This document shows positions 11,351 through 46,082 of a stretch of DNA of 46,891 nucleotides, one piece after another. The position numbers and the translations under genes are program-made. The notes under the pieces were generated by a model, which saw nothing but the letters and a program-made list of their open reading frames with translations, did no database searches and was not told where the DNA came from. Origin of the DNA: Akkermansia muciniphila (GTDB lineage: Bacteria > Verrucomicrobiota > Verrucomicrobiia > Verrucomicrobiales > Akkermansiaceae); assembly GCA_945860285.1 (NCBI GenBank), contig CAMAQB010000013.1:1-46891 (forward strand). Reading direction: 5' to 3'. Each line of letters starts with the position of its first letter. Within the stretch, counting starts at the first letter, position 1.

Positions 11351-11353
11351 GCC

Positions 11354-12948: not shown

Positions 12949-12957
12949 CGCCGGCCC

Positions 12958-13170: not shown

Positions 13171-13176
13171 CGAGGT

Positions 13177-14421: not shown

Positions 14422-14463
14422 GGTATAAAAAATTTCGCTTGATGGTTTGCCGGGCGCAGGCGG

Positions 14464-25824: not shown

Positions 25825-28800
25825 ATGAAAATGCCACCATGCACCGATAGCAAAAACAGTGATCGAATCTTTCGGATCATCGGCGGTGCTTTCGCACTTA
25901 TGTTCATCACGGCTCCGTCCCATGGACAAAACGCCAGCGTTCTGGAGATCGAGAACATCGTACAGACCTCCCGGAGCGGACAGGATGCATGGGTCGCAGC
26001 CGAGCCAAAACAATCATTATCGATCACCGACCGCATCCGCACTCGGCAGCGCAGTCGGGCCACTGTCGCGCTCACCGGTCTGTTCACCCTGCGGCTCGAA
26101 CCGTTTACCACCATCGAAATCACTCCGAATCTGGTGACTTCCGAAAAACCCAAACTCGACCTGCTTGGCGGAGCGGCTTTCATTTTCAGTCGCGAGCGCA
26201 ACGGCGAAATGGACATCGCCCTGCCGGGAGCGAATGCCGCCCTGCGCGGCACCCAATTGCTGGCAAGGGTTCTTCCCGATGGAAAATCATTCGTGCAAGT
26301 GCTGGAAGGCAACGTCGAGTTGAGCAACGACAAGGGAAAACTGACACTCGCGGCGGGAGAGGCCGGCGAAGCGGTGAAAGGAAAAGCACCCCGGCGCACG
26401 GCGGTCATCGAGGCAAAAAACATTCTGCAATGGGCGCTCTATTATCCCGCGGTGCTCGACCTCGCCGATCTTGGCGATGGTGCGGCGGTAAACAAGTCTT
26501 CGGCCGATGCCTACCGCCGCGGCAACCTGCTGAAGGCTCTCGCCAAGCTGCCAAACCGCCCCTCGAACAAAACCGACGACATCGTCTATCACGCCGGGGT
26601 GCTGCTGGCGGTGGGCAGCATCGATGAATCGCGCGCGCTGCTCCGACAAGTGCCGCGGAACAACGTGGGACGTCGCGCGCTCGAACGCATGATCGCCGCG
26701 GCCCAACAACAGCCTGCGAGCGAATGGAACATCGAAGAAGTCAACACCCCATCCGAAGCGATGGCGGAAAGTTATTATCTGCAATCAATCGGCAAACTGG
26801 AGGCCGCGCGGGCGATGGCCGAGCACGCCACCAAATTGTCCGCTGAAAACGGCTACGCCTGGACCCGGCTCGCCGAGTTGGAGTTTTCCGCCGGGCGCAC
26901 GAAAGAGGCGCGACTGGCGATTGAAAAAGGAATGTCCTTCGCGCCGGAAAATGCCCGGGCCCACGCCCTGCGCGGATTCATCCTGAGCGCCGATAACCGC
27001 ATCGCCGAGGCCCGGGAGTGCTTCGGCACATCGGTGCAGCTCGACGGCGGATTCGGCAACGGCTGGCTGGGACTGGGACTAACGAAAATCAAACAGGGGC
27101 ATCTGGAGGAAGGACGGCAGGATTTGCAAAGCGCGGCTACCGTCGAGCCCACCTCGTCGATTTTCCACAGTTACCTCGCCAAGGCGATGAGCCAGGACGG
27201 TCGGGCGGCGGAGGCAACCAAGGACCTTGAACTGGCGAAGATGCTCGACCCGAACGATCCGACACCTCTCTTGTATTCGGCGATCGAACACCAGCAGAAC
27301 AACCGCACCAACCAGGCCATTGCCGATTTGGAGAAATCGATCGAACTAAACGACTACCGCCGGCTCTATCGCTCGCAATTCCTGCTCGATCAGGACCGCG
27401 CGGTGCGGAGCGCCAACCTGGCGAAAATCTATCAAAATGCGGGGATGAAGGATGTTGCCGTGCGCGAGGCGACCCGGGCCGTGGAAAGCGATTACACCAA
27501 CGCATCGGCCCACCTGTTCCTCGCCAATTCATTCGACGCGCTGCGCGATCCGAACCGCATCCTGCTGCGCTACGAAACACCTTGGTTCAACGAACTGCTG
27601 CTGGCGAACCTGCTTTCCCCGGTCGGCGGCGGACCGCTTTCGCAGTTTGTCTCGCAACAGGAATACTCGAAATTGTTGGAAGCCGACGGCATCGGCGGCA
27701 GTCTCACCACCGCGTGGCGCAGCACCGAGGAACTGCGCACGGCCGCTTCGCTCTTCGGCACCCACGGCAACGTGAGTTTCGGGATCGATGCGTTCTTCCG
27801 CGATAACAAGGGGGATCGACCCAACAACGGTTCGGAAATCTCCGAAATCTACGCTCAGCTCAAATGGCAGCCGACACCCGATGACATCTTTTATTTTCTC
27901 GGAAAATGGGCCGAGCAGACGAGTGGCGACACCTTTGAAACGTATGACAACAAGCCGCTGTCACCGGATTTCGACTTCAAGGAAATCCAGCAACCCGGCC
28001 TGCTGCTGGGCGGATGGAACCATCGCTGGGCACCGGGCTCCAACACCCTGTTCCTCGCGGGCCGCCTCGCTGCCGAACAAAGCATCCGCGATCCGTCTTC
28101 GCGCCAACTGATGATCGAACGCGACACCAGCGGCATGCGCCCGGACTTCTTGCAAACTTCCGTCAGCGGCGACGACGAGTTCACCGACCCCGCCCTGGCT
28201 GGCTCCGTTTCCGTCGCGCCCGACGGTGAATCGCTGGTGTATTCCCCCGCCCTGTTGAAGGCCATCGCCCCGTTTCTCGGCAGCGGCAATGTGGTGAACA
28301 TCGGCGATGCCGGGTTCGATTTTGAAACGCATCGCAAGATCGAAATTTACAGTGCGGAAATCCAGCACATCCAACAGGGGGAGGACAACACCCTGCTGGT
28401 CGGCGGTCGCTTGCAGCAGGGGCGGATCGAGACCGACGCCCGGCTCACGGCCATTCGCCCGAACTATGTCGGCCTTGCCACACCGGCATCGGATCAACAC
28501 ATCGAATCGGACTTCACCCGCACCGGCGTGTATGCCTACGACTACTGGAAAATCGTGCCCGATCTCACGCTGATCGGAGGGCTAACGTGGGACATGATTG
28601 ACCATCCCGACAACTTCCGCAATCCCCCGGTGAACGACTTGCAGGAAAAGGACCAGAGTCTCTCCGGCAAACTGGGATTCTCGTGGGAAGCGTCGAAACG
28701 CTTGATCATACGCGGCATCGCGGCCGAAGGCATGGGCGGACTCACCTTTGATGAAAGCGTGCGGCTGGAACCCGTGCAACTCGCGGGATTCAACCAGGCG

Positions 28801-29484
28801 TATCGAACGGTGATTTCCGAATCGCTGGTCGGTTCCGTCGAAGCTCCGCACTATGAAATCCTCGGACTCAGCGCGCAAGGTTCGCTGCCATCCCGCACCT
28901 GGTGGGGTTGCTCCGCCAACATGATCAAACAGGACGTTTCGCGCACCGTCGGCGCCTTCACCGGCTATGACGCAGGGGTCTTTCCGATCTCGCCGGCCTT
29001 TTTCGCCGATGGCACCAGTCAGGATTTGGAGTATCTGGAACAAGCGGTGAACATCACCCTCAACCAGCTGGTGGGCGAGGAGTTCTCACTCGGCGCCAGC
29101 TACCTCTTGACGCGCTCCGAATTGCAAACCCGTTATCCCGAACTGCTTTCCGAGCCCGGCACGGATTACACCGACGAGGCCATGCTGCAGGAGATTTCGC
29201 TCTACGCCAACTGGAATTCCCCCAGCGGATTTTTCGCGCACGTCGAAGTCAATGGCTTTCAACAAGACCTCAACGACGACCCCTCGCGTCCGACACCGCG
29301 CAGTGGCGACGAGTTCGTGCAGTGCAATGCCTGGGCGGGTTACCGTTTCCAACAGAACAGTTGCGAAGTTACCGCCGGGGTGTTGAACATCGGCGACACC
29401 GACTACGCGCTGAGTCCGTTGAACCCTCACGCCGATCTCGCGAGGGAGAGGACCTTTTTTGTTCTTTGCCGACTTAGTTTCTAA
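25825..29484 (+). CDS. FecR-TPR protein with C-terminal outer-membrane beta-barrel
   Basis: 1219 aa. Signal peptide at 1-35 (IIGGAFALMFITAPSHG). A FecR domain follows (~37-200): RTRQRSRATVALTGLFTLRL, PGANAALRGTQLLARV, FVQVLEGNVELSND. TPR repeats occupy ~240-590 (WTRLAELEFSAGRTKEARLA, GWLGLGLTKIKQGHLEEG). From ~604 on, alternating hydrophobic strands with many aromatics run to a terminal Phe (FFVLCRLSF), the usual end of an outer-membrane barrel, as in TonB-receptor-like proteins. The combination suggests a periplasmic sensor module anchored by its own barrel. It stands 12 bp before the cyclase gene and FecR proteins are often found with CHASE2 cyclases, so a joint signal path is likely. A possible promoter is TTGACG 25738-25743 / TGTATG 25761-25766 (17 nt). 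Confidence 0.82.
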   Translation: MKMPPCTDSKNSDRIFRIIGGAFALMFITAPSHGQNASVLEIENIVQTSRSGQDAWVAAEPKQSLSITDRIRTRQRSRATVALTGLFTLRLEPFTTIEITPNLVTSEKPKLDLLGGAAFIFSRERNGEMDIALPGANAALRGTQLLARVLPDGKSFVQVLEGNVELSNDKGKLTLAAGEAGEAVKGKAPRRTAVIEAKNILQWALYYPAVLDLADLGDGAAVNKSSADAYRRGNLLKALAKLPNRPSNKTDDIVYHAGVLLAVGSIDESRALLRQVPRNNVGRRALERMIAAAQQQPASEWNIEEVNTPSEAMAESYYLQSIGKLEAARAMAEHATKLSAENGYAWTRLAELEFSAGRTKEARLAIEKGMSFAPENARAHALRGFILSADNRIAEARECFGTSVQLDGGFGNGWLGLGLTKIKQGHLEEGRQDLQSAATVEPTSSIFHSYLAKAMSQDGRAAEATKDLELAKMLDPNDPTPLLYSAIEHQQNNRTNQAIADLEKSIELNDYRRLYRSQFLLDQDRAVRSANLAKIYQNAGMKDVAVREATRAVESDYTNASAHLFLANSFDALRDPNRILLRYETPWFNELLLANLLSPVGGGPLSQFVSQQEYSKLLEADGIGGSLTTAWRSTEELRTAASLFGTHGNVSFGIDAFFRDNKGDRPNNGSEISEIYAQLKWQPTPDDIFYFLGKWAEQTSGDTFETYDNKPLSPDFDFKEIQQPGLLLGGWNHRWAPGSNTLFLAGRLAAEQSIRDPSSRQLMIERDTSGMRPDFLQTSVSGDDEFTDPALAGSVSVAPDGESLVYSPALLKAIAPFLGSGNVVNIGDAGFDFETHRKIEIYSAEIQHIQQGEDNTLLVGGRLQQGRIETDARLTAIRPNYVGLATPASDQHIESDFTRTGVYAYDYWKIVPDLTLIGGLTWDMIDHPDNFRNPPVNDLQEKDQSLSGKLGFSWEASKRLIIRGIAAEGMGGLTFDESVRLEPVQLAGFNQAYRTVISESLVGSVEAPHYEILGLSAQGSLPSRTWWGCSANMIKQDVSRTVGAFTGYDAGVFPISPAFFADGTSQDLEYLEQAVNITLNQLVGEEFSLGASYLLTRSELQTRYPELLSEPGTDYTDEAMLQEISLYANWNSPSGFFAHVEVNGFQQDLNDDPSRPTPRSGDEFVQCNAWAGYRFQQNSCEVTAGVLNIGDTDYALSPLNPHADLARERTFFVLCRLSF

Positions 29485-29495
29485 CAGAATCAACC

Positions 29496-31580
29496 ATGCC
29501 CGCAGCAAAGACTGGGAAAGACCAAGGTGCTCTCGGCAGAACGGAGCGCACCACGCGCGTTGTCGCCGCGCTGATCGGAGCAGTGCTCACGGTGGGCATC
29601 GGCAACTTCGCGCTGCTGCGAATCGGCGATCCGTTGGTCTCGCTGAGCTATGACCTGCCATTTATTTTTCACCGGGCGGGCAACAGCAACGAACTTCGAA
29701 TCGTCTATCTGAACAAGGCGAACGAAGATGTACTGGACAGGAGACCGCAGGCACAGTTGCTCGACAAACTGGCGAAGGCCGGTGCCAAAACGGTAATCTA
29801 TGATGTTATTTTTGACATCCCTTCCGCAGATCCGCAGGTGGATGATGAGTTTGCCGACTCCATCCGCCGGTTTCGCGGTGTTGATGCGACGGGGAAACCC
29901 CTGCCCGGTGTGCCGCAACGCCACGTGCTGCTGGCCTGCGGTCGAAAAACGATCAATACCGCCGGGGCGGTCGGCGAACAATTGATCCCTCCTATCGATG
30001 CCCTGCTGGATGCGGCCGATGATTTCGGCATCGTGGCGTTCGACGATGAGGAATACATGATCCGCAAGCTGTCGACCGGCAGCAAGGATGAACCATCGTT
30101 GATCTGGAAAACTGCCGTTGTGCTGGATGCGGGGCTCGATGAAAAAACGCGCACTTCACCGCGTTGGGTCAACTACAGCGGACCTCCCGAAAAGAGAAAA
30201 ACCCGTGGCACGCAATCGACGATTCCCTCTTGCGGATCGGACAGCGTGATGCTGAGCACGGAGGACAGCGGATTCTTCCGCGACAAGGTGGTCATCGTCG
30301 GCGGCGAACCGGGCATCGTCGGCGAGGCGCTGGGAAAAGACCTGTTTTCCACACCATTCCACCGCCTGCAGTTCGGCGAAAAACTTCCGTTGATGAGCGG
30401 CGTGGAAGTCCAGGCCAACGGACTGGCCAACCTGCTGAGGAAAAACTGGCTGAACCGTTCCAGCCATGCGTTTGATTTGATTATCACGGCTCTCTGCGGG
30501 ATCATTGTCGGTGCCGGACTGAGCTTCCTGCGCCCGCTCCGCGCCATCCTGATCGCCCTCTGCCTCAGCCTTGGCGGTGCCATTACCGGCACCGCTTCGA
30601 TGCGCTATGGCAATTTTTGGTTTCCATGGAGCGTCGTTTCGTTTCTGCAGGTTCCTGCGGCTCTCGTTTGGGGCATCGCATCGAGTTCCTATATCGAACG
30701 TTTCTTCCGCATCAAAATCTCCGCCGAACAGGAGGCCATCCGCGCGGCGTTCGCCAAGTACCTTTCCCCGCAAATGCTCGAACGCCTGACCTCGCAGGGA
30801 TTCACCACCAACCTCGGCGGCGAATCGGTGCAGGCGGCAATGATGTTCACCGACCTCGAATCATTCACCGACATGTGCGACAGGATTCGCGACCCGCAAC
30901 GCATCGTGCAGACGCTGAATGATTATTTCGAACGAACGACAGCCAGCATTTTTGACAACGATGGAGTGATCATCAAGTACATTGGCGATGCCATCTTCGC
31001 CGCATGGGGTGCGCCTGTTGCCGATCCACACTCGCCGATCAAAGCGGTGCACGCGGCGTGGAAGCTTTTTGAAAGCGACAAACTCGTGGTCGATGGCGTG
31101 AGCCTGAGAACCCGGATCGGACTGAATTACGGCGACGTGGTTTCAGGCAACATCGGCAGTTCCCGGCGGGTGGACTACACGCTGATCGGCGATGCCGTGA
31201 ACCTGACGGCACGACTGGAGGGGCTCAACAAAATGCTGGGTACGCACATTCTGATGAGCGAGTCGATCCTGACCCACCTCGATCAGGAATACCGCACGCG
31301 CAGGGTCGGCAAGTTCCAGGTCAAGGGTCGGAAAGAACACACCGTGGTTTACGAACTGCTCGGACCGGCGCGGGAGCAGAAACAACCCGCCTGGATCGAC
31401 ACCTACGAGAGGGCCATTGATTCCCTCAATGCCAATTGCCTTGCGAGCGCGCTTCCCCTTTTTGCAGCCGTCGATCAACAGCGCGGTCCCCAGGGCGACG
31501 GACCCTCGCGGTTCATGATTGGGTGGATCAAGTCCGGTGCGTTGATCATCGACGGCATCATCGAGTTAAAAGAGAAATGA
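29496..31580 (+). CDS. CHASE2-domain class III adenylate cyclase
   Basis: 694 aa inner-membrane cyclase. First membrane segment ~22-43, then a periplasmic CHASE2 sensor (~45-320, with SLSYDLPF, GAKTVIYDVIFD, DKVVIVGG), then three membrane helices (~325-400), then the cyclase domain (~440-610). Catalytic residues: metal ligands Asp453 (MMFTDLESFT) and Asp498 (KYIGDAIFAAWG), purine-selecting Lys494 and Asp566 (LIGDAVNLTARLE, which specifies adenine), transition-state Asn569 and Arg573. All are present, so it should make cAMP. It is the second gene of the FecR-barrel operon. Its product could act on the cNMP-binding glutaminase upstream. Confidence 0.9.
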   Translation: MPAAKTGKDQGALGRTERTTRVVAALIGAVLTVGIGNFALLRIGDPLVSLSYDLPFIFHRAGNSNELRIVYLNKANEDVLDRRPQAQLLDKLAKAGAKTVIYDVIFDIPSADPQVDDEFADSIRRFRGVDATGKPLPGVPQRHVLLACGRKTINTAGAVGEQLIPPIDALLDAADDFGIVAFDDEEYMIRKLSTGSKDEPSLIWKTAVVLDAGLDEKTRTSPRWVNYSGPPEKRKTRGTQSTIPSCGSDSVMLSTEDSGFFRDKVVIVGGEPGIVGEALGKDLFSTPFHRLQFGEKLPLMSGVEVQANGLANLLRKNWLNRSSHAFDLIITALCGIIVGAGLSFLRPLRAILIALCLSLGGAITGTASMRYGNFWFPWSVVSFLQVPAALVWGIASSSYIERFFRIKISAEQEAIRAAFAKYLSPQMLERLTSQGFTTNLGGESVQAAMMFTDLESFTDMCDRIRDPQRIVQTLNDYFERTTASIFDNDGVIIKYIGDAIFAAWGAPVADPHSPIKAVHAAWKLFESDKLVVDGVSLRTRIGLNYGDVVSGNIGSSRRVDYTLIGDAVNLTARLEGLNKMLGTHILMSESILTHLDQEYRTRRVGKFQVKGRKEHTVVYELLGPAREQKQPAWIDTYERAIDSLNANCLASALPLFAAVDQQRGPQGDGPSRFMIGWIKSGALIIDGIIELKEK

Positions 31581-31694
31581 ACATCAACCTGAACACATTT
31601 TCCGCCGGGCCGATGAGCGCGCATAAAATTACCCGGATGGAGGAAATTGGCACATCAGAGGGTTGACAAGAACTCCAAAAACACAAAAAATAAA

Positions 31695-32504
31695 ATGTTC
31701 ACGAAGATAATCAGCGTCCTAATGATCCCTTTCCGTCGTCATCTGCTGGAAAAAAAACGCACTCGTTGTTTCGAGCTGCTCTGTTGCCTGTGCATCGCTT
31801 TTTTCACCAACAGAACCAGCGGCGCGGTATTGATGGATCAAATCGGCACGCCGGTAAACTACACACTCGGCCTGGGACCGAAAAAACCAAGCCAGATTTC
31901 TCCGGTGACTCCCGAGTTTTTTGATCCTTCGTTCGACTCCACAGTCCTCGAGGATTTCACCGCGAATTCGAGCGAACTGCAGCTTTTCCATGTTGCCGCG
32001 TTGTTCGAAGCCCAGGGCGGCTTCGCCAGTTTTGCCGGCGCATTTGGTTATCGCGTCGATGTTTTCAGCGATCCGTCACTGGCGGGAACTTCCCTCGTCG
32101 GCGACGTGGCGAGTCAATTCATCGTCGTCGGCAGCGGAGCGAGCGTCACGCAGGTCCCCGATCTATCCGGCCTCGCGGAGTATGGTTTGGTGAGTCTGGA
32201 TGTGAACATCAACCTGACATCAGCGGGAACCTACTGGCTCGGGGTCTCGGTGATTGCCCCCTTTGAATCGGGCATCTTTTTTCTTCAGCACAGCGGGGCC
32301 GCCACGGCGGGGAATGCCGACGCGAGATTTGCCAATCCCGAAGACGGCTTTGGCCTGGGAGCGCTGTCCACCACCGATCTCGACTATGCCTACGCGATCG
32401 AGGCCATTCCCGAACCGGCCAGTGCCCTGCTGGGTGCCTTGGGCCTCGCAATGCTGCTCGGCAGCAGAAAACGTTCTCTTGTGAACCGGGGTGTGCTCGG
32501 ATAA
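31695..32504 (+). CDS. PEP-CTERM secreted protein
   Basis: 269 aa from the ATG at 31695; the alternative TTG at 31647 adds residues without leader character. Signal region KKRTRCFELLCCLCIAFFT, then a beta-rich, Gly/Ser/Ala-rich domain with no known enzymatic motif. The C-terminus is the sorting signal: AIPEPASALLGALGLAM followed by basic SRKR, which is the PEP motif, hydrophobic helix and positive tail recognised by exosortase. It should end up at the cell envelope or be processed to the outside. It is 114 bp after the cyclase and 43 bp before the next gene, so likely in the same transcript. The exosortase gene is not in the window. Confidence 0.85.
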   Translation: MFTKIISVLMIPFRRHLLEKKRTRCFELLCCLCIAFFTNRTSGAVLMDQIGTPVNYTLGLGPKKPSQISPVTPEFFDPSFDSTVLEDFTANSSELQLFHVAALFEAQGGFASFAGAFGYRVDVFSDPSLAGTSLVGDVASQFIVVGSGASVTQVPDLSGLAEYGLVSLDVNINLTSAGTYWLGVSVIAPFESGIFFLQHSGAATAGNADARFANPEDGFGLGALSTTDLDYAYAIEAIPEPASALLGALGLAMLLGSRKRSLVNRGVLG

Positions 32505-32547
32505 AATTCCGCGAATTTTCCATCGTCACGCCTTTTGATTTCCTGCC

Positions 32548-33690
32548 ATGCACGCGAAACGCACCATCATCTTTGCTATTTCCCTGCTTCTTCTTGGAGC
32601 GGGGGGTATCTGGTGGCGGCAGGAAAACGCGCGCAAACCCGGAGCGCAGGTACACCAACAGTCGGTCGGCGGATCCATCAAAAAAGACTTGCGCGCGCCC
32701 TCGGCTGATCCCGTGGCTCGTGGCGAAGTGTTGCTGCAAAACAAGCTTCCGCGCGATGAATCGCTTGGTGCCCTGCAGCAAATGCAGGAAGAATTGCGCG
32801 CCCTGCCCGCTGACCAAGCCGTCGCGCGGATCGAAGAGTATCTCAGAACCGGAAAAGACCGCAAAACCGGACTGGGCTTTGTCATCGGGGCGGGCGGCAC
32901 TATGAAGGAATGGCCGACATTGCGAACGTTTCTCGTCGATGCCCTGCTCGCCATCGATGCACAGGCCGCCGCGCGGATCAGCAGGGAGATTCTCGCCAAA
33001 CCGGGCAGCGCCGATGAATGGGCGCTCGCACTGCGCAATCTGGGTCGGGTGGAGACATCCGCCGACTCCAGGGAATTGCTGATCGAACGCACCAAAGAAC
33101 TGATCAACAATCCCGAATGGCAGGCCGATCCCAGCATCGGGTATCTCAATGCCTTCGACACCCTTGTCCATACCGACGCCACTGAAACCATTCCGCTATT
33201 ATCAGGGCTGATTCAGAGAAAAGACCGCAAGGACTTGGCGCATGCCGGTTTTCTCACCCTCGACCGTCTCGTCCAGCGCAACCCGGTTGATGCTCTCCAT
33301 CTTGTGGCAGCCGAACGGGCCCTGAGCGCCAGCCGTCCGGAAATGGTCGCCCAGCAATTCGCCCGCGCCGATCTGCGCGACACCTCGCAGCGCGAAATCG
33401 TTAGAAACTGGCTGCTGAATCCCTCTCGGACTCCCGCAGAGTTGCAATCATTCGCCGGTGTCTATCCGAACAACAATCAGTTCATTTCCCACAATTTGCT
33501 CAGCTCCTCCACCCAGTCGACAGGCGCGGAACTCGCCGCCCACGACCGCGCGGCGCTGGAAATCATCACTTCCTGGCAGAAAGATGCCGCTTTTCAGCCG
33601 GTCCAGGAACAACTCCGCACCATGGTTGCCCGCCTAAACAGTTTCGTGGGTGTCTCAAAATTGCCGATCCCCGCTCCGCCTGCCAAATAA
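32548..33690 (+). CDS. Membrane-anchored helical protein of unknown function
   Basis: 380 aa with one N-terminal membrane segment (TIIFAISLLLLGAGGIWW, residues 6-23) and no evident signal cleavage. The rest is almost entirely helical, rich in Ala, Leu, Arg, Glu, and reads like repeated helical pairs (ALPADQAVARIEEYL, LLSGLIQRKDRKDLAHAGF, LLNPSRTPAELQSFAGVY), compatible with HEAT/TPR-like folding in the periplasm. No catalytic motif seen. Sits between the PEP-CTERM protein and the giant protease-containing protein with gaps of 43 and 10 bp, so it probably serves the same system, perhaps as a chaperone or adaptor. Confidence 0.65.
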   Translation: MHAKRTIIFAISLLLLGAGGIWWRQENARKPGAQVHQQSVGGSIKKDLRAPSADPVARGEVLLQNKLPRDESLGALQQMQEELRALPADQAVARIEEYLRTGKDRKTGLGFVIGAGGTMKEWPTLRTFLVDALLAIDAQAAARISREILAKPGSADEWALALRNLGRVETSADSRELLIERTKELINNPEWQADPSIGYLNAFDTLVHTDATETIPLLSGLIQRKDRKDLAHAGFLTLDRLVQRNPVDALHLVAAERALSASRPEMVAQQFARADLRDTSQREIVRNWLLNPSRTPAELQSFAGVYPNNNQFISHNLLSSSTQSTGAELAAHDRAALEIITSWQKDAAFQPVQEQLRTMVARLNSFVGVSKLPIPAPPAK

Positions 33691-33700
33691 TCATTCGACC

Positions 33701-36700
33701 ATGAATCCCAACAACCTCTCGTGGAATGATTCCTGCTTCAAAAGTTCCAAAAATCCAATACTCATGAAAATCACTCCCAAGGAAGCAATCAATGCCCATG
33801 TCGGCAACGGCGCGTTGCACTGCATTGGCAAAAGGCATTTCCAGGCGGGACTCGTTGCCATGCTGGTGATGATCTTCTGCCTCATCCTTCCCATTGGCGC
33901 ACAATCACAGGCGATCCCCGCGTCGAATGGTTTGACAATGAAAACCTACGACAACACATACGGCGCTGCGTTTTTGAATCCAATTGCCAATCTGCAGGCG
34001 GTCACTCCCAGCGCCACTTCAGTGCAATATGAAAACGTCCAAGTCCGGCCCGGCAACGCCGTGCGACTTCCCGGTCTCACCAAGAATGATACCTTTTCCG
34101 TTCTCTGGGAAGGCTGGATGGACGTGGCCAAGGATGGTCCTGGAATGTATTCGTTCGCGACGAAGAGCGACGATGGCAGTGTCATCTATCTGGATCTGAA
34201 TGACGACGGGGATTTTGCCGATCCAGGCGAACTGATCGTAAACAGTAATTTCGATCATGATGTCATCACCCGGCTTGCAACCACAAGGATCGAGAGGGAT
34301 GCGGTGCGGATCGCCATCGGCTTCTATGAAAATTCTGGCAACCAGTCCATGATTGCCAAATTCAAGAAAGGCGAAGTCTTTGAATACAAGTCGCTCGATC
34401 CAATCAACGGGCAGTCGGGACATTTCCACACCACCCGGCCACCGGCAAATCCTGCAGCGGCAAACATCTGGGACTTTGGCATCGCGGGCAGTCGGGCGAT
34501 AGTCGACGGGCAAACCATCAATTGGCTATTGCCTGCTGGAACCAATCTACAATCGCTTGCACCGACCTTTGGAATTTCCGACGGTGCGATCGCGAATCGT
34601 CCCTCCGGAACGCCAAGGGATTTTTCGGTGCCGCAGACCTATACTGTCACGTCTCAAAATGGCGCGAAGACGAAGACTTACAGTGTAGTTGCATCCAATT
34701 CCAATGTTCCGCTCGTCCACACGTTTGACTCTGGTAACCAGGGGTGGAAGGTTGTGAGCTTTAGCAATCCTGCTGCCAGCGATTATTCAATCGTTGGAAC
34801 CTACGCGCCAACGCATGTAGCGACTGGAGGCAACCCGGGCGGATTCATCAGATCAACGGACCCGGACTCCAAGGACTTTGCCTTCGCTGCGCCGGAAAAT
34901 TTTGTTCGCAGATTGACCAATGCCAGCGGAGGGACTCTGTCGTACGATCTAACCTATGTCGGTGCCGGCAACTACTTCGGCCGTGACCTGATACTTGCAG
35001 GCGGAGGAATCAGTCTCGTGTGGAAGAGTCCGGTCTCCTTGATTCCCACAGCCGGATGGACTCATGCAGCCGCAACGTTGGTGCCATCATCCCAGTGGCG
35101 CGTTGGCACGGATGTCGGTCCCTTGGCCACAAGTGCCGATTTTCAGACCGTTCTGGCCAATCCAACAGGCCTTTTCCTGTATGGCGAACACACATATCCT
35201 GGTGCCGATCTCACCAGCATTGACAATGTGTCCATCGCGCCAGCCATGAGTCCACTCATTTTCACCCAACCTCTCAGCCAGACGATTGCCAGCGGTGCAT
35301 CTACGGAGCTGATGGTAATGGCCTCCGGTGTGCCTGCGCCGTTTTACCAATGGTATCAGGGTGAGAGCGGCAACACGCTGAGCCCGGTGGACGGAGCCAA
35401 CTCGGCGGTCTTGACTACTCCCACTCTCATTGCCACGACCCAATTCTGGGTTCGTGTCACCAACCCTTTTGGCATGGTCGATAGCGACACAGCGACGATT
35501 ACTGTCGATGCCCCGCCCGAGGCCAACACCTTTTTGAGTGATCTGGATTTGAGCAGCGGTGAGCTGTCACCCGCATTCGATCCTCTCACCGGCCTCTATT
35601 CCGCCCGAGTTGCCAACCCCGTTTCCGCCATCACGGTGCTGCCGACAGCGGCCAGTTCTTTGGCAACGGTGCGAGTCAACGATCTGATTGTCCCGCTCGG
35701 ATTTTCAAGCCAAGCACTGGACCTGGAAGTCGGTGCCAACGTCATCACCATCCAGGTCGCGGCGGCAAACAGAAATGCCAATAGAACGTACTATGTCACT
35801 GTCACCCGGGCGGCTCCGGTGATTGTCACCACCGGGCCCGCCGAGATGGTGGACTCCACTCAAGCGGTATTGAAGGGCACCGTGAATCCCAACGGCGCGG
35901 CGACCGTGTATTTTGAATACGGCAGCACTCCATTGTTCGGCGAACGGACCGATGACATGGACATATCCGGCATCGTGGCCACCGCTTTCCAAAAAGAACT
36001 GACCGGCCTTCCCGGTGACAGCATATTTTACTATCGTGCCGTAGCGCAGACCGAAGACGGCACATTTTATGGCCTGGAGCAATCCTTCACGACCTCGCCG
36101 GAAGCGCCGGTCGCCGCTACCGGTGATCCTGCGGTGGTAACCAATAACAGCGCGACGCTGATTGGAGCCGTGGACCCCAAGGGGCTTGAAACCGTTGTTG
36201 TGTTCCAATACGGAACCACCAATCTCTACGGCAACGTCACTCCCCCGCAAATCATTCCGCCCGGCACCGGCATCGTCGACATCGTCGTTCCCAACGCCGG
36301 ACTGATTCCCAATTCCACTTATCACTATCGGATTGTCGCCAGCAATGCCGCCGGTGACGCAGTCGGCGAGGATGTCATTTTCAATGCCAGTGTGGGCGGC
36401 GACGCAGCTCTTGCTCCGACCGACAAACCAACGGTGAATACGGGTGCTGCATTGGCGGTGGGAACCCAATCGGCGACATTGCTCGGCAGCGTCAATCCGA
36501 ATCAAGGCACTACTGTTGTTCAGTTCGAATTCGGCACGAGCACCAGCTACGGACGAAAAACCAAGATTCAAGGCGTTGGCAACAGCAGCACCTTGGCAGA
36601 TGTGGCGCTGTTGGCGGATGGCATGCTTCCCGGCACGGAAATCCATTACCGCTTGATCGCCTCGAACAGTCTCGGCACTTCGACAGGTGAGGACAAATCA

Positions 36701-39700
36701 TTCATAACCAAATCAGCCGCGCCCACAGCGGTGACCGGGGACGCGGAAATCCTCACCACCACCAAGGCGCGATTGAACGGCTGGGCGCGCGCCAGCGGCG
36801 CTGCTGCGGACGTATTCTTTGACTACGGAACCGACGGCGTCACCTTCCCAAACAGCATCAGCGCCTCACCTACGTATGTGGACGGCAACGTACTAACGGC
36901 AGTGAGCGCCGAGTTGCCGAATCTCTCGCAGGGCGTGACGTATTTCTATCGTGTGCGTGCCGAGAACGCGGACGGCAGTGGAACCGGAGATGTCAAATCC
37001 CTGAAGGTCGCATTGCTCTCCGGGCTGATTCAGCGCTTTCCCGCCGAAGTGGCGCCTGCCGAGCGTCAGGGGTCTGTGACCGTCACGCTCCACCCCGGCG
37101 GAATTGGCAGCGGCTGGCGCTTCGCTGGCGAGTTGTCATGGCGTTTGTCCGGAATTCCCGCGACTGGCTTGACCAGCGGTGACCGGGTGATTGAATACCG
37201 ACCCGTGGCCGGGCACATTCAGCCAGCGAGCGAAACGGTATCGGTCGTCAGCGCTCCTCCGGGAATTTTGTTGGATCGAACCTACACTCCGTCGGTGACG
37301 ACGGGAACAGGCGACCTGACAGTCAGCTTGAAACCGGAATCCCTCGCGGACAGCAACGTGCCCGTGGCCAACCGGCTCCAGTGGCGGCTTTTCGGCGAGA
37401 GCGATGCGCAGTGGAAGGACAGCGGAACGACGGTGAGCGGACTGGTCGCTGGCAGCCATTTGATCGAATGCAAAGCAGTCCCCGGTCGTGCGACCCCTCC
37501 AGCCGCAAGTGCGCTGATCGAAGAAAACCAGACGACCACCAGCACCATCACGTATTTCCTGAACCAGGAAACCATCGGCGCGGCACCGGGCGTACTTACG
37601 TTCCAAGTGGTGTCGGCCAGCACCGACCAACCATACGCCTACTGTGGACAAATCCGCAGTGATACCGGTGCCGGAAGTGGTTTTGTCGTCGGACCGCGCG
37701 TAGTTGCAACCGCAGGACACGTCGTGTTCGATGATGGCTCGCTTGCCACGGCGACAGGGCTGCAATGGTTGTTTCAAAGAGACCGCGATGTTCACGAGCC
37801 AAGGGTTCTGCTGCCGCGCGGTTACTATCTCATGACTGGTTACGCGGCCCAGCGGGCTGCGGACAATTCTCCGGGCACCTCGACGCCGCAATCGCAGAAC
37901 CTCGATGCGGCATCGCTGTATTTCAGTGAAGACGCCGGTCGCGGCGGTTACAGCGGTTACCTGGCTAGCGATTCGACCAGCAATGAATTCATCCTGTCCT
38001 CCGCAATCAAAACGCTTGTCGGCTATCCTCTCGACGGCATTGCCGAACAAGATCGCGACAAGATGCATGCGACGCCCAGATCCGCCGTGCGTTTTTCCCA
38101 AGCTTTCGCACGAACCTACACGACGAGCGACATCCGCAGTGCCGGTGGCAACTCGGGAGGTCCGCTCTGTGTTCAGTATGAAAACAGCAACTTCTATCCG
38201 GCGGCCATTTATCTCGGCGGCACCGCCCAAACCGTGGTGCGGGCGATCGACAGCGATGTGGTGGAACTTTTCGGTTTCGCGGAAACCAGCGGACGTTCAG
38301 GAGTCGGCGATGCCGGCGGAAGCCTGACGACAATCAGCAGAACACCAATCGCCACTCCCGCGCTCGGTGCTTTGCAGGTGATGATCGAACCCGCCGCGGC
38401 CCGCAATGCGGGTGGCGGCTGGCGTCTCCGCTCACAGTCGTCCTTCCGCGCCGGGGGCTACCAGGAAAACAACCTGAACCCTAACATCTATAGCGTCGAA
38501 TTCGCCACGGTGGCGGGCTATGTGCCGCCTTCGTTGCATACGGTCGAAATCAAGGGCGGGGAACTTGCCACCTTTTCGTTCACCTACGAAAAAATCATTC
38601 TGCCGCCGGTGATCAATTCGCCCGACAGTGTGACGGGTGTCCGTGGCTCGACTCTCGCGTATCAAATCACCGCACTGAACTCACCGGATCTCTTTTCGCT
38701 TCGCGGCGCGTTGCCAGCGGGTATGTCATTCGAGGAAAGCAACGGATTGATCTCGGGCATTCCCACCGAGGCGGGCAGGTTCATTGTCACGGCCGGAGCA
38801 AACAATTCGGGCGGAGCCGACTCGCGGATGGTGACACTCACTTCGCTGCCTGATCTGAATCCCCAGTCGCTCACCATTCCCTATAACCAGCCGATGAGCT
38901 ACCAGATCATCACCAGCGAGAGCGGAAATGGAGTCGTCTTCGCAGCGACAAATCTTCCGCAGGGCTTGTCCCTCAATCCCGTTAGTGGGCAAGTTTCCGG
39001 GACACCCATGGTTGCCGGATCATTCCCGATTCCCATCAGCGTGACGATCCGCAACGCCACCGCGACATCGATACTCACACTCCACATCACCGGCACCCCT
39101 CCGGTCTTCACCCTGCAACCCGTGGCGGCCCGAACCATCGCCTATGGCGGAAGCACCTCACTGAAGGTGGCCGCCGAGGGACTTCCCGCCCCGACATTCC
39201 AATGGTATCAGGGTGAGAGCGGAGTGACCGATTCACCGATTCCAGGTGCGACATCCGCGATGTTCACGACTCCTTCACTCACCACACCAACAAAGTACTG
39301 GGTGCGCGCATCAAGCATCAGCGGCAGCACCGACAGCTCCACTTCGGCGATCAGCCTGCTTCCTTCCACCAACGCCAATCTTGCCGGCCTGCTATTGAGT
39401 TCGGGAACGCTGTCGCCAACGTTCAATGCGGGCATTGCCTCCTATGCGGCAAATGTCGGCAATGCCGTGTCGACAATTCAAATCACCCCGCTTGTCGAAG
39501 TCGGCCAATCAACCGTTAGAATCAATGGCGGCCCGACCGCTCCGGGCGCGCCGAGCATTCCACTCGCACTTGCAACCGGACCCAACCTCATCAGCGTCGA
39601 AGTGACCGCTGGCGATGGCACCACGAAAAAGACCTACCTGATCACCGTCACGCGCCTTGCTCCCGCTTCCATCACGACCGGCGGCATCCTGAATCTAACA

Positions 39701-42700
39701 GATATTTCCGCGACCATCCAGGGCACGGTGATTCCAAACGGCAATGCCACGGTTTTTTTCCAATACGGCAAAACTGACCAGTACGGCAACACCACGACAC
39801 CGCAGGATGTTTCCGGAACCAATCCCCTCGTTTTCCAGTCGGTTTTAACAGGACTCCTCGGCGACACCGAATACCACTTCCGCAGCGCCGTCACCACGGC
39901 AGCGGGCACGTTTTTCGGAGAGGACGCAATGTTCCGAACCGCTGTCAATTCCCCGCTTGTGGCCACCGGTGATGCGGTCGATGTGACACGCACTGATGCA
40001 TTGCTACTCGGAGCGGTGGATACCAACAACATCGCAACAGAGGTATATTTCGAGTATGGTCCGACCACCAACTACGGCTTCAATACGCCGCACGGCACCA
40101 TTCCCGCCGGAGTTGGTGTGGTTGACATCTCCTATCCCGTCACCGGTGTGAATGCCTCCTATCACTATCGTCTTGTCGCCATCAACACCGCAGGCATGGC
40201 GTTCGGCGACGACGTGATTCTGGGCACGGGCGGCGGCAGCAAGATTGATTCCAGCAAACCGGATGCCGCCACGGGTGATTCATCCGACATCACCACGGGT
40301 TCGGCAATTCTTCAAGGTCTGGTGAATCCGCACAACCGGACCACCATGGTGAGTTTTGAATACGGATTGACAGAAACCTACGGCAGCAAGACCGCCAGCC
40401 GGGGCGTTGGCAACGGCAACACCGGCATCACAGTGGTTCAAATGGCGGACGGCTTGTTACCGGGAACAACCTATCATTACCGCGTAAGCGCGGCAAACAG
40501 CCACGGCACCACTCTCGGCGAAGATCGAACATTCACCACCGCACCGCTAGCACCGGCGGCGTTGACGGGTGATGCCGGGGCATTGACAGCGACGACCGCG
40601 AGAATTCATGGCACCGTCAAGGCCCGTGGTGCGAATACCCTGGTTTCATTCGAATACGGTACCGATGGAATGAACTTCCCCAACAGAGCGAATGCAGACC
40701 CAGCGAATGTCACCGGCGATGCTGAAATACCGGTCAGCCTGGAGATTGCCAACCTCGACGAACTGGTGACATACTATTACAGAATTCGCGCCAGCAACTC
40801 CGGCGGTACGACCCTGGGGGCAATACGCACTTTGCGGACCGGATCACTACAAGGGCTGGTTCAGGATTTCACCCGCGAAGTTCCCATCAACGACCGCCTG
40901 GGCCAGTTGATTGTCTATATCCTGCCAACAGCCATCGGCGGCTGGCGTTTCATCGGCGACACCTCATGGAGAAATTCGGGCGAGATGGTCGCTTCCCTCA
41001 CCACCGGCGAGAGAGAAATCGAATTCCGCCCGGTGGCCGGATACATCCAACCACAAAACGAGCTCGTCGGCGTGGTCAGTGGCGAAACCACACAAGTGCT
41101 CGAACGGATTTATTATGATTCCGCTGTCGCAGGTACAGGTGCCTTGAAAGTGTTCCTGCTGCCTGAATCGATCACAGGAACCGGTGTTTCGTTGCCGAGC
41201 CGCGCGCAATGGCGCATCATCGGCGACAGCACTTGGATCGATTCCGGTGCGGAGCGAACTGGTTTGACGCCCGGAAGTTATCTGGTGGAATGCAAGGCGG
41301 TTCTCGGCAAAAACACCCCTTCGCCGGTCAACGCGCTGGTGACGCAAAGGGCGACAAAAACCACCAGCATCAGCTACTTCCCCGCCAGCGCACCAAGTTT
41401 GAACCCGCCTCGCCCGATTCCCTTTTCCACTGTCTCGACAAGTGAAAATCTTCCGTACGGCTACGTCGGACAAATCCGCAGCGGCACGGGATCATACAGC
41501 GGTTTCGTCGTCAAACCACGCGTTGTTGTCACCGTGGCCCAGGCGATATTCGACGACGCGACCTTGTCGGCGACGAGCGGCACCCAGTGGTTGTTGCAAC
41601 GGGATCGCGGTACCTACGAACCAACTCCGCAGACTCCCCGCGGATACTATCTTTTCAGCGGCTATGACGCCCAACGCACAGCCGAAGCCAGTCCGGGCCT
41701 GTTGTCGCCGCAATCCCAGGACATGAACGTCGCGGCGCTTTATTTCGCTGCGGATGCGGGACGGGGCGGCTTCAGCGGGTTCCTCGCCAGCGATACGGAA
41801 CCTAACGAATTTCTCACCTCGACTTCGCTGAAAACCCTGGTCGGCTATCCGGTCAATGGCGTGTCGACCGCGAACCAGGGCCGCATGCACGCGACAACCC
41901 CGGCAACGGCAACGATGACCCTGGCCCTTGGCAGAACCTATCAAACCAGTCAGATCCGCGGCATGGGCGGCATGTTCGGCGGTCCATTCTGCGTGCAGAA
42001 AGACGGCGGTGCCTTCTACCCGGCCGGCGTTTTTGTCGGCGGCACCACGCAAAGCCTGATCCGCGCCATCGACGGCAACATGATCGACCTGTTCACCCGC
42101 GCCGAAGTCAGCGGCAATGGCGGCGACAACAATACCGGCGGCGGCATCACCCATTCGAGTTTCACCACCATCGGCACTGCCTCACAACCGGGCGCTTTGA
42201 AAATCACCATCCTCCCCGAAGCCGCGATTTCCGCAGGCCGATGGAGCATCAGCCCCGAGACCACGCTGCGAACCAGCGGTGCGCAAAAAGGCAACCTCGC
42301 TCCGGGAACCTACGTGATCAAGTTCAACACCGTGGCCGGGTTCCAAGTTCCCGCGCAACAAAGGATCACCATCAGCGGCGGCCAGCTCTCCACCCTGACC
42401 TACACCTTCGAGTCCTCGACCACTCCGCAGGAATCGTGGCGATTGACCAATTTCAACAGCACCGCAAATGCCGGCATCGCCGCCGACGACGCCGATCCCG
42501 ATGGCGACGGCGCCAGCAACAGGGACGAATACGCGGCCGGCACGAATCCCAACAATGCCGCAGACATGTTCAAGGTTCTCACCATGACCCGGACAACAGG
42601 CCTTTTCAGCGTCAGCGTTCTTGGCAAAAAAGACCGCACCTATGTCCTGGAGAGAACCAGCAGCCTGAACGCCGCTTCATGGAGTGCGGTGAAATCCATC

Positions 42701-42793
42701 GGACCGCTGGCCAGCGACCAGCCAATCACCCTCAGTGATGCCGCACCGCCTGTCGATCAGGGATTTTACCTGGTCCGCGTCACTTCGCCTTGA
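33701..42793 (+). CDS. Giant secreted repeat protein with one intact and one dead serine-protease domain
   Basis: 3030 aa from the ATG at 33701; ATG 33764 is an alternative with a shorter leader. Signal helix ~50-71. Order: PA14-like domain (~76-229), laminin-B-like domain (~335-516), Ig-like (~520-605), cadherin-like (~609-705), four FN3-type repeats (starts near 35829, 36118, 36436, 36733), PEGA-like modules, trypsin-fold protease 1 (~1299-1529), PEGA-like, two putative-Ig repeats, then Ig, cadherin-like, four FN3, PEGA, protease 2 (~2573-2803), PEGA, and a Ca-binding DPDGDGASNRDEY repeat. Protease 1 has His1340 (ATAGHV), Asp1402 (LDAASLYF), Ser1485 (GGNSGGPL). In copy 2 these are Gln2614, Asn2676, Phe2759. 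No PEP-CTERM or other sorting tail. Likely extracellular adhesion plus proteolysis. Confidence 0.85.
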   Translation: MNPNNLSWNDSCFKSSKNPILMKITPKEAINAHVGNGALHCIGKRHFQAGLVAMLVMIFCLILPIGAQSQAIPASNGLTMKTYDNTYGAAFLNPIANLQAVTPSATSVQYENVQVRPGNAVRLPGLTKNDTFSVLWEGWMDVAKDGPGMYSFATKSDDGSVIYLDLNDDGDFADPGELIVNSNFDHDVITRLATTRIERDAVRIAIGFYENSGNQSMIAKFKKGEVFEYKSLDPINGQSGHFHTTRPPANPAAANIWDFGIAGSRAIVDGQTINWLLPAGTNLQSLAPTFGISDGAIANRPSGTPRDFSVPQTYTVTSQNGAKTKTYSVVASNSNVPLVHTFDSGNQGWKVVSFSNPAASDYSIVGTYAPTHVATGGNPGGFIRSTDPDSKDFAFAAPENFVRRLTNASGGTLSYDLTYVGAGNYFGRDLILAGGGISLVWKSPVSLIPTAGWTHAAATLVPSSQWRVGTDVGPLATSADFQTVLANPTGLFLYGEHTYPGADLTSIDNVSIAPAMSPLIFTQPLSQTIASGASTELMVMASGVPAPFYQWYQGESGNTLSPVDGANSAVLTTPTLIATTQFWVRVTNPFGMVDSDTATITVDAPPEANTFLSDLDLSSGELSPAFDPLTGLYSARVANPVSAITVLPTAASSLATVRVNDLIVPLGFSSQALDLEVGANVITIQVAAANRNANRTYYVTVTRAAPVIVTTGPAEMVDSTQAVLKGTVNPNGAATVYFEYGSTPLFGERTDDMDISGIVATAFQKELTGLPGDSIFYYRAVAQTEDGTFYGLEQSFTTSPEAPVAATGDPAVVTNNSATLIGAVDPKGLETVVVFQYGTTNLYGNVTPPQIIPPGTGIVDIVVPNAGLIPNSTYHYRIVASNAAGDAVGEDVIFNASVGGDAALAPTDKPTVNTGAALAVGTQSATLLGSVNPNQGTTVVQFEFGTSTSYGRKTKIQGVGNSSTLADVALLADGMLPGTEIHYRLIASNSLGTSTGEDKSFITKSAAPTAVTGDAEILTTTKARLNGWARASGAAADVFFDYGTDGVTFPNSISASPTYVDGNVLTAVSAELPNLSQGVTYFYRVRAENADGSGTGDVKSLKVALLSGLIQRFPAEVAPAERQGSVTVTLHPGGIGSGWRFAGELSWRLSGIPATGLTSGDRVIEYRPVAGHIQPASETVSVVSAPPGILLDRTYTPSVTTGTGDLTVSLKPESLADSNVPVANRLQWRLFGESDAQWKDSGTTVSGLVAGSHLIECKAVPGRATPPAASALIEENQTTTSTITYFLNQETIGAAPGVLTFQVVSASTDQPYAYCGQIRSDTGAGSGFVVGPRVVATAGHVVFDDGSLATATGLQWLFQRDRDVHEPRVLLPRGYYLMTGYAAQRAADNSPGTSTPQSQNLDAASLYFSEDAGRGGYSGYLASDSTSNEFILSSAIKTLVGYPLDGIAEQDRDKMHATPRSAVRFSQAFARTYTTSDIRSAGGNSGGPLCVQYENSNFYPAAIYLGGTAQTVVRAIDSDVVELFGFAETSGRSGVGDAGGSLTTISRTPIATPALGALQVMIEPAAARNAGGGWRLRSQSSFRAGGYQENNLNPNIYSVEFATVAGYVPPSLHTVEIKGGELATFSFTYEKIILPPVINSPDSVTGVRGSTLAYQITALNSPDLFSLRGALPAGMSFEESNGLISGIPTEAGRFIVTAGANNSGGADSRMVTLTSLPDLNPQSLTIPYNQPMSYQIITSESGNGVVFAATNLPQGLSLNPVSGQVSGTPMVAGSFPIPISVTIRNATATSILTLHITGTPPVFTLQPVAARTIAYGGSTSLKVAAEGLPAPTFQWYQGESGVTDSPIPGATSAMFTTPSLTTPTKYWVRASSISGSTDSSTSAISLLPSTNANLAGLLLSSGTLSPTFNAGIASYAANVGNAVSTIQITPLVEVGQSTVRINGGPTAPGAPSIPLALATGPNLISVEVTAGDGTTKKTYLITVTRLAPASITTGGILNLTDISATIQGTVIPNGNATVFFQYGKTDQYGNTTTPQDVSGTNPLVFQSVLTGLLGDTEYHFRSAVTTAAGTFFGEDAMFRTAVNSPLVATGDAVDVTRTDALLLGAVDTNNIATEVYFEYGPTTNYGFNTPHGTIPAGVGVVDISYPVTGVNASYHYRLVAINTAGMAFGDDVILGTGGGSKIDSSKPDAATGDSSDITTGSAILQGLVNPHNRTTMVSFEYGLTETYGSKTASRGVGNGNTGITVVQMADGLLPGTTYHYRVSAANSHGTTLGEDRTFTTAPLAPAALTGDAGALTATTARIHGTVKARGANTLVSFEYGTDGMNFPNRANADPANVTGDAEIPVSLEIANLDELVTYYYRIRASNSGGTTLGAIRTLRTGSLQGLVQDFTREVPINDRLGQLIVYILPTAIGGWRFIGDTSWRNSGEMVASLTTGEREIEFRPVAGYIQPQNELVGVVSGETTQVLERIYYDSAVAGTGALKVFLLPESITGTGVSLPSRAQWRIIGDSTWIDSGAERTGLTPGSYLVECKAVLGKNTPSPVNALVTQRATKTTSISYFPASAPSLNPPRPIPFSTVSTSENLPYGYVGQIRSGTGSYSGFVVKPRVVVTVAQAIFDDATLSATSGTQWLLQRDRGTYEPTPQTPRGYYLFSGYDAQRTAEASPGLLSPQSQDMNVAALYFAADAGRGGFSGFLASDTEPNEFLTSTSLKTLVGYPVNGVSTANQGRMHATTPATATMTLALGRTYQTSQIRGMGGMFGGPFCVQKDGGAFYPAGVFVGGTTQSLIRAIDGNMIDLFTRAEVSGNGGDNNTGGGITHSSFTTIGTASQPGALKITILPEAAISAGRWSISPETTLRTSGAQKGNLAPGTYVIKFNTVAGFQVPAQQRITISGGQLSTLTYTFESSTTPQESWRLTNFNSTANAGIAADDADPDGDGASNRDEYAAGTNPNNAADMFKVLTMTRTTGLFSVSVLGKKDRTYVLERTSSLNAASWSAVKSIGPLASDQPITLSDAAPPVDQGFYLVRVTSP
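35251..38590 (+). repeat. Internal duplication, block 1 of the giant protein
   Basis: Ig, cadherin-like, four FN3-type, two PEGA-like, active-type protease, PEGA-like. Offset to block 2 is ~3.82-3.85 kb. A 24-base stretch starting at 35347, coding for QWYQGESG, is identical at 39199, showing common origin at DNA level. Confidence 0.85.
39096..42415 (+). repeat. Internal duplication, block 2 of the giant protein
   Basis: Same module order as block 1 but with a protease domain that has lost His, Asp and Ser. Protein similarity is visible along the whole block (GYYLxxGYxAQR, DAGRGGxSGxLASD, KTLVGYPxxG), while most DNA has diverged. Confidence 0.85.
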
Positions 42794-43230: not shown

Positions 43231-43713
43231 TCAATGCAACAAGCGCGCCGCTTCGGACACCGTGGTGTTGACGGCCAGTTTTTCATTCATTTGGCGGATG
43301 CGCCGGCACATGCACACCATGATGCCGGTCAACAAGGCATTGCCCGCCACCGGATAGGAATTGACGAAGTCATCAATGTCGGCACGCGAGGCCCGCCAGA
43401 TTTGCGAAAAATCCTTGGTGACGACGTTCGCACTCGCCACCCCGGGGTCGAAGATGTTCACTTCGCCGATTGTTTCGCCCGCTTGCACACGACTGATGAA
43501 AAGAACCCGTCCCTCCACCCCGCCGGTGACGTGCAACAGTCCGGAAATGAGGAAATACAGGGAGTCCTGCGGCGCGCCCTGCGCGATCACCGTGGTGCCC
43601 GGATGGCCGGGAATGAACTCTCCATAATTGCTCAGCAAGGCGCGATCCTCGTCCTGCATCAGCGATAATATGCCAATCGATGGCAATTCAGGTCGGTTGA
43701 ATTGATCATTCAT
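43231..43713 (-). CDS. Cyclic-nucleotide-binding-like protein with degenerate pocket
   Basis: 160 aa: one CRP-type beta-barrel (~20-120) and a C-terminal helix, with no helix-turn-helix. The phosphate-binding cassette reads TIGEVNIFDPGVASANV: Gly83-Glu84 are kept but the essential Arg before Ser/Thr-Ala is Ala93. It is thus unlikely to bind cAMP in the normal way and may be a ligand-free regulator or bind another molecule. Co-transcribed with the DUF3307 gene, divergent from katG. Confidence 0.75.
   Translation of the reverse strand: MNDQFNRPELPSIGILSLMQDEDRALLSNYGEFIPGHPGTTVIAQGAPQDSLYFLISGLLHVTGGVEGRVLFISRVQAGETIGEVNIFDPGVASANVVTKDFSQIWRASRADIDDFVNSYPVAGNALLTGIMVCMCRRIRQMNEKLAVNTTVSEAARLLH

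Positions 43714-43757: not shown

Positions 43758-46082
<2,325 letters not shown>

Follow-up and report, generated by a model that had tools for sequence, protein, structure and literature searches.

A receptor, a CHASE2 adenylate cyclase and giant trypsin-like proteins recur together in Verrucomicrobiota: a possible protease-coupled cAMP circuit

Why should a bacterium encode an outer-membrane receptor, an adenylate cyclase and a very large protein with protease modules side by side? The question is raised by a stretch of 46,891 nucleotides from Akkermansia muciniphila (Verrucomicrobiota; contig CAMAQB010000013.1 of assembly GCA_945860285.1), referred to here as the window. A preliminary description, made from the letters of the window alone, had proposed an envelope-sensing cluster of five plus-strand genes separated by gaps of 11, 114, 43 and 10 base pairs (bp). 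The cluster (25825-42793) is real: all five open reading frames (ORFs) are recovered in the ORF list of the window, with the same gaps when ATG starts are used, and it is mostly conserved above chance level. The reading favoured here, at a probability of roughly 0.5, is that a protease-coupled outer-membrane receptor drives a cyclic AMP (cAMP) circuit whose effectors are encoded nearby, such that signalling across the cell envelope is coupled to proteolysis. The five genes are as follows.

25825..29484, plus strand: P0001, predicted FecR-TPR-beta-barrel outer-membrane receptor, 1219 amino acids (aa); from Pfam, a structural model and Foldseek
29496..31580, plus strand: P0002, CHASE2 adenylate cyclase, 694 aa; from Pfam and alignment
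31695..32504, plus strand: P0003, PEP-CTERM protein, an optional member; from its ATG start (a TTG at 31647 opens the longest frame)
32548..33690, plus strand: P0004, N-terminal hydrophobic helix and alpha-solenoid, 380 aa; from an AlphaFold2 model
33701..42793, plus strand: P0005, giant multidomain protein, probably exported, 3030 aa from its ATG start

The longest frame of P0005 begins at GTG 33650, encodes 3047 aa and overlaps the P0004 gene. Assignments to the outer membrane, the inner membrane or export are predictions from domains and from N-terminal stretches judged by eye.

The linkage between protease and receptor extends well beyond this genome. The protease module of the giant and the barrel of the receptor were each searched for separately in one common set of 239 genomes from the order, with one threshold each, a design that is less biased than a scan anchored on the receptor. 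The module is present in 12 genomes (E<=1e-25) and the barrel in 13 (E<=1e-40), and all 12 module genomes fall within the 13 barrel genomes. In the thirteenth barrel genome, G069, which is 86% complete, the barrel is fragmented across two contigs. This overlap has a hypergeometric probability of 2e-19 by genomes and 4e-6 by genera (5 and 6 of 48), of which the latter is the safer figure because genomes of the same genus are not independent.

A scan of genome contigs with four receptor sequences, and therefore anchored on the receptor, yielded 31 loci. Records titled Verrucomicrobiota or a subgroup account for 29 of these, and the remaining two (L101 and L118) belong to one metagenome-assembled genome (MAG) titled Porticoccaceae. 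Together with the window, a second copy on contig C49 of the same genome, and the locus of genome G027, they bring the total to 34, with L108 being the locus of G034. Two of the records, Haloferula sp. BvORR071 (L113) and Luteolibacter marinus NBU1238 (L117), bear no MAG label and appear to come from cultured strains. The cyclase adjoins the receptor gene in 27 of the 34. P0004 is near the receptor in 20 and not on the examined DNA in 14, while half of the loci (17/34) have a protease module on the examined DNA. Many contigs or flanks stop within the cluster, and in L116, L120 and L121 the break falls within the receptor gene itself. Seventeen loci have no module on that DNA: L095, L096, L097, L098, L101, L104, L105, L107, L109, L111, L114, L115, L116, L117, L120, L121 and L123. 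Distances can be large: in G104 (L123) a giant lies ~9 kb from the receptor, and in G129 (L122) the cyclase lies ~13 kb downstream.

The second set, on contig C49, encodes a receptor, cyclase, PEP-CTERM protein and P0004 that are 61%, 54%, 37% and 56% identical to those of the window, together with a giant of 5519 aa. Two extra ORFs stand between P0004 and the giant in this copy (L015:9298-11168, no Pfam matches) and in L095 (12836-14774). Just upstream of the C49 copy, near the contig end, is a transposase-like ORF (L015:148-1128; HTH_38, with rve below cut-off).

Could this neighbourhood be a loose association of independent functions that share no common pathway? Gene order does vary, with P0004 and the giant on the opposite strand in G034 and other orders in G146, L103 and L124; the PEP-CTERM gene comes and goes, and some loci are without protease, P0004 or cyclase. 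However, the nesting of the module genomes within the few barrel genomes of the order speaks against such an explanation, as does the recurrence of the linkage, after rearrangement, in records titled as other classes of Verrucomicrobiota (L124, L125). This explanation is already disfavoured and appears very improbable.

Co-conservation in other Verrucomicrobiota, which the preliminary description had offered as a check on its proposal, holds for four of the five genes, which recur together and are present as a second set in the same genome. It does not hold for the PEP-CTERM gene, homologues of which were found in just 5 of the 34 loci, window included; this gene is not core, contrary to its earlier inclusion in the system. 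Its product had also been called an exosortase substrate. In favour of this, the C-terminal PEP motif is clearly recognisable, and a single exosortase gene is present in the genome, outside the cluster; against it, the Pfam PEP-CTERM match scores 17.2 bits where the cut-off is 20.7.

The receptor itself is a composite protein. Pfam finds a FecR domain (E=6e-9) and TPRs in P0001, together with a TonB-dependent-barrel-like match (E=2e-5, 24.9 bits) that lies under the cut-off of 27; the Plug family is absent from its matches at E<=0.01. In a model built from 19 sequences, the FecR part is beta-rich and the TPR region helical, and 22 C-terminal strands of at least eight residues start directly after a low-confidence helical stretch. 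The Foldseek matches shown are TonB-dependent receptors, with a best E of 2e-14. P0001 is thus predicted to combine a FecR domain, a TPR region and a C-terminal outer-membrane beta-barrel in one protein, as was claimed at the outset, the first two parts being identified by Pfam and the barrel-like strands by the model and Foldseek. In two MAG contigs, the receptor frame is split in two (L111, 30-4333; L112, 8261-11546), through either an assembly error or a broken gene.

The adjacent P0002 matches CHASE2 (2e-20) and Guanylate_cyc (4e-24) in Pfam, and its residues 408-621 align with solved class III adenylate cyclases. The metal, purine and transition-state positions are conserved in an alignment with photoactivated adenylate cyclase. 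Both lines agree with the original identification of a CHASE2 adenylate cyclase with its catalytic residues. In one genus the cyclase reaches 1015-1065 aa (G104C5, G127C22, G129C16). The sole long copy scanned with Pfam (L123, 18573-21740, from G104) has a protein kinase domain N-terminal to CHASE2 and, judged by its domains, is a kinase-sensor-cyclase protein.

P0005 carries Ig-like, Fn3-like and cadherin-like domains, two protease modules and a TSP3-type C-terminus according to Pfam, and a hydrophobic N-terminal stretch is visible by eye. It also contains an internal duplication of ~1110 aa (residues 534-1652 vs 1816-2926, 46% identical). Three of its regions are central to what follows.

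37625..38284, plus strand: trypsin-like module 1, with intact His/Asp/Ser (H1357, the Asp of QNLDAAS, and S1502, in GTG-start numbering)
41450..42109, plus strand: trypsin-like module 2, dead, with Gln in place of His, Asn in place of Asp and Phe in place of Ser
42425..42790, plus strand: C-terminal TSP3/beta domain of the giant, which recurs in the same genome

The earlier picture of a 3030-aa secreted protein with a protease consequently survives as regards the giant and its trypsin-like module, and is amended in that there are two modules, the second of which is dead. From its triad and family context, module 1 is predicted to be a trypsin-like serine protease; module 2, with Gln, Asn and Phe at the three positions, is predicted not to be one. 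Trypsin_2 was found in 13 of 14 aligned modules at E<=0.1 (best 1.5e-9), and the giant of L124 passes the curated cut-off of that family. Five short, weak lipase matches in a profile search of PDB sequences were treated as chance.

Across the collected loci, His, Asp and Ser are kept in 32 of 39 modules (42 were collected, of which three were repeats; L118 and L119 are closely related). The seven dead modules are all the second module of a duplicated giant. They share the change from His to Gln and the loss of Ser (7/7 each), and six of the seven have Asn in place of Asp. They also form one clade (FastTree support 1.0). Among four loci, identity is 51-64% between dead modules and 58-66% between live ones, and the dead copy has therefore not decayed much faster. 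This is a clear case of protease duplication in which one copy has been retained despite the loss of its catalytic residues.

The giants are otherwise variable, spanning ~1300 to 6131 aa. The domains before the protease differ among the three giants scanned whole: Ig-like, Fn3-like and cadherin-like domains in the window, leucine-rich repeats and a beta-propeller in L106, and FG-GAP repeats in L124. Four giants are found on a single contig of G129, which has one receptor. The last 123 residues of the window's giant have eight further matches in its own genome at E<=0.001, mostly weak, one of them being the C49 giant. Since this TSP3/beta domain recurs at eight other places in the genome, it may function in export or anchoring.

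P0004, encoded between sensor and giant, has no Pfam match at E<=0.01. Its AlphaFold2 model (18 sequences, mean pLDDT, a measure of predicted confidence, 87.9) consists of an N-terminal helix followed by an alpha-solenoid, in keeping with the membrane-anchored helical protein first described, the anchor being judged by eye. A fold search of the PDB gave no matches at E<=0.001. The best Foldseek candidate for a fold relative (E 4.5e-3; template-modelling (TM) score to the query <=0.41 among the 50 rows shown) was uninformative; the weak matches are mostly ARM/HEAT-type helical proteins. A search of 57 relatives returned 12 matches, four at loci with the full set and eight distant (L019-L026). 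All eight distant homologues adjoin a trypsin-like ORF, although several of these ORFs are weakly assigned. Trypsin_2 was found in six of seven scanned neighbours, above the cut-off in L021 alone and at E 3e-5 to 0.05 in the rest; the L025 neighbour is assigned through a below-cut-off P-domain and a GNSGG motif, and that of L024 solely through a GNSGGP motif. In four of the eight, no strict His motif was found. Seven of these proteins have 279-418 aa and one has 2031 aa, and five of the seven scanned have a P-domain match (one below cut-off). There are no FecR-barrel or CHASE2 matches at the L019-L026 sites. Because its distant homologues adjoin trypsin-like ORFs where barrel and CHASE2 are missing, P0004 probably belongs with the protease instead of the receptor. 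No family name was found for the two-gene module of P0004 and trypsin-like protein.

These observations also bear on a further explanation, in which the protease cuts partners within the envelope (the receptor, P0004 or the CHASE2 domain) and so controls the cyclase, as regulated-proteolysis cascades do, with the dead module as a built-in regulator. The triad kept in most modules, the single retained clade of dead copies, and the trypsin-like neighbours of P0004 at receptor-free loci would all fit. The size of the giant and its front domains suggest the cell exterior, not the periplasm, and this explanation is regarded as distinctly unlikely.

The proposed circuit also needs an output, and candidates flank the cluster on both sides. 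The span first described for the system contains its five genes and omits two that encode cyclic-nucleotide-binding (CNB) proteins.

23805..25661, plus strand: P0007, glutaminase-STAS-cyclic-nucleotide-binding protein; from Pfam; the gene ends 163 bp upstream of the receptor gene
43231..43713, minus strand: small cyclic-nucleotide-binding-domain protein; from Pfam; downstream of the giant

Pfam assigns Glutaminase (7e-121), cNMP_binding (2.6e-15) and, below cut-off, STAS (0.0018) to P0007, and cNMP_binding (3.3e-15) to the small protein. These two account for half of the four cNMP_binding (PF00027) matches in the genome. From its domains, P0007 is a candidate cAMP effector. A P0007 homologue is encoded immediately after the giant in G027, G141, G164, G174 and G146. 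In G141, G164 and G174, one strand carries the genes for receptor, cyclase, P0004, giant, glutaminase-CNB and two further CNB proteins in that sequence, and the order in G027 is identical. Of the 71 cNMP-binding matches in the 12 genomes that have module and barrel alike, 19 lie <=20 kb from a barrel match, where ~0.6 would be expected (a hand count from listed positions that excludes six scanned genomes outside the 12). A small custom profile, which includes the L101 protein, detects a CNB-type ORF in 9 of 31 named loci. Proteins of this kind, including the glutaminase, are candidate cAMP effectors in these bacteria. Behind the CNB gene of L101, large opposite-strand ORFs (10659-15016) resemble ABC exporters by eye.

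From these parts, their recurrent linkage and their intact and dead triads, we infer the envelope locations, ligand, direction of relay, cyclase product and regulation of effectors as follows. The giant would be exported, its front domains varying by lineage while its trypsin-like module keeps the catalytic residues. From an anchor in the inner membrane, P0004 would serve the protease as a chaperone, inhibitor or tether. The ligand of the outer-membrane barrel would be a protein or peptide, most probably either the giant itself or something released by its protease, and the receptor would in this way sense products of proteolysis. Its periplasmic TPR/FecR part would pass the signal on to the inner-membrane cyclase through the CHASE2 domain, and the resulting cAMP would act on the neighbouring glutaminase-STAS-CNB protein and small CNB protein.

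Several observations weigh against this protease-fed receptor. The model of P0001 has a mean pLDDT of 74 with low confidence at residues 450-585, and its TM-scores to solved barrels are only 0.3-0.5. Module 1 of the window falls barely below the Trypsin_2 cut-off (26.2 vs 27.6 bits), and the module profile retrieved no trypsins from PDB sequences, which leaves Pfam and the conserved triad as the basis of the trypsin assignment. Four loci (L098, L101, L104, L114) carry the receptor/cyclase pair with no module in ~10 kb downstream (the upstream DNA for L098 and L101 is only 1-2 kb), and the receptor may consequently have other inputs. L107, in G132, has no cyclase or module across 7 kb of upstream and 10 kb of downstream DNA, and the five protease-module matches of this genome are on contigs other than the receptor's. 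L115, close to the window, has no cyclase between receptor and PEP gene. The cNMP-binding genes are near the locus in just six of the 12 genomes, from two genera, and the other six have none there. Lastly, palindromic CRP-type sites are not in excess in the window (9 vs 16 expected).

In the main rival, the giant and its protease are outputs: the receptor/cyclase pair senses something else, cAMP controls how the giants are produced or exported, the giants act as adhesins or extracellular proteases, and the linkage reflects co-regulation. The genes share a strand and have short gaps. A single receptor accompanies four modules in G129 and five in G132, the latter on other contigs in the fashion of a regulon. 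In Sinorhizobium meliloti, moreover, Clr-dependent target genes are described downstream of cAMP. On the other side, CRP-like sites show no enrichment, and one protease family tracks one receptor family almost exactly, more tightly than would be expected of outputs. In L124, the giant stands upstream of the receptor and their longest frames overlap by 4 bp. Giants as outputs are a possibility to be taken seriously, if a somewhat doubtful one, and the evidence is compatible with both this account and the protease-fed receptor. Three points favour the protease-fed receptor: the link concerns one protease family in particular, that family retains its triad, and the nearest receptor so far studied, discussed below, responds to a protein-like signal.

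Promoter-like matches in the window are at chance level (7 vs 5.7 expected); one of them, TTGACA-17-AAAAAT at 31663-31691, precedes the PEP-CTERM gene, and an internal promoter is therefore possible. Terminator-like matches number 38 vs 21 in shuffles, with none on the plus strand inside the gaps separating the five genes.

A receptor tied to one protease family offers a direct candidate for what CHASE2 domains and FecR-barrel receptors sense. A more elaborate version of the protease-fed receptor can be outlined, which is speculative and rather unlikely. Here, the giants would be surface proteins whose interchangeable front domains capture extracellular protein, which the protease would cut; the dead copy would hold or present the fragments; and a plugless 22-strand barrel would read them and raise cAMP for a dedicated cAMP-binding glutaminase. 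One receptor could then serve several giants, making this a protease-activated receptor system.

Elsewhere in the window, a catalase-peroxidase (KatG-like) gene with two peroxidase stretches (Pfam) lies downstream of the cluster at 43842-46082. A tyrosine-recombinase-like gene is found at 11354-12271 and a HipA-like kinase gene at 17236-18540. At 527-4107, a pectic acid lyase/polysaccharide lyase protein is followed by a SASA-type esterase, possibly as a plant-polysaccharide degradation pair.

How does this locus compare with known systems? According to PMC7529298 and PMC13001267, a plant signal, for which the ribosomal protein uL2 is the candidate, is perceived in S. meliloti by NsrA, an outer-membrane receptor with its barrel at residues 600-1200, together with the CHASE2 cyclases CyaK, CyaD1 and CyaD2. 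The pSymB record contains a 1190-aa FecR-TPR protein with a barrel-like C-terminus (Pfam), whose gene overlaps cyaK by one base. We infer from its place and size that this protein is NsrA, a name that the record does not give. The profile of the window receptor aligns with it over 971 columns (hhalign 99.3%), and P0002 is 29% identical to the CHASE2 adenylate cyclase CyaK over 607 columns. A tblastn search of the receptor against plasmids gave a single match, in the TPR region, and the S. meliloti pair was reached via the cyclase. With its cyclase gene directly beside the receptor gene, across the 11-bp gap, the window appears from these alignments to encode a pair of the NsrA-CyaK type. The original suggestion that the barrel protein and cyclase are sensory is strengthened by this profile match and, within the text available, by the literature on NsrA. 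The two loci differ in their surroundings: among the 13 annotated features of the S. meliloti stretch, going by annotation only, no protease giant, P0004-like protein or cNMP-binding gene is named.

Other relatives of the sensor pair share parts of this arrangement, as far as the available text of each source extends. A Campylobacterota CHASE2 cyclase cluster (PMC9239204) has a phosphodiesterase gene, and that text mentions no protease giant. A Burkholderia operon (PMC5192318) likewise sets a FecR envelope protein, here FecR-LysM, beside a CHASE2 sensor; it differs in signalling through a histidine kinase and a response regulator, and no barrel, cyclase or protease giant is mentioned there. 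In magnetotactic bacteria (PMC4439547), the gene after mtxA shows similarity to adenylate cyclases and to CHASE2, and TPR elements are discussed, with no mention in that text of a protease giant or CNB gene. The L019-L026 pairs described above likewise join a trypsin-like protein to a P0004-family protein, but are mostly small proteins and have no sensor match. In the open-access library searched, no title or abstract was found to describe a combined FecR-barrel/CHASE2/protease/CNB system. The sensor pair is therefore of a known kind, since NsrA/CyaK of S. meliloti and other FecR/CHASE2 and TPR/CHASE2 clusters have been described. What is new is that a protease giant, P0004 and cNMP-binding genes are attached to this known sensor pair.

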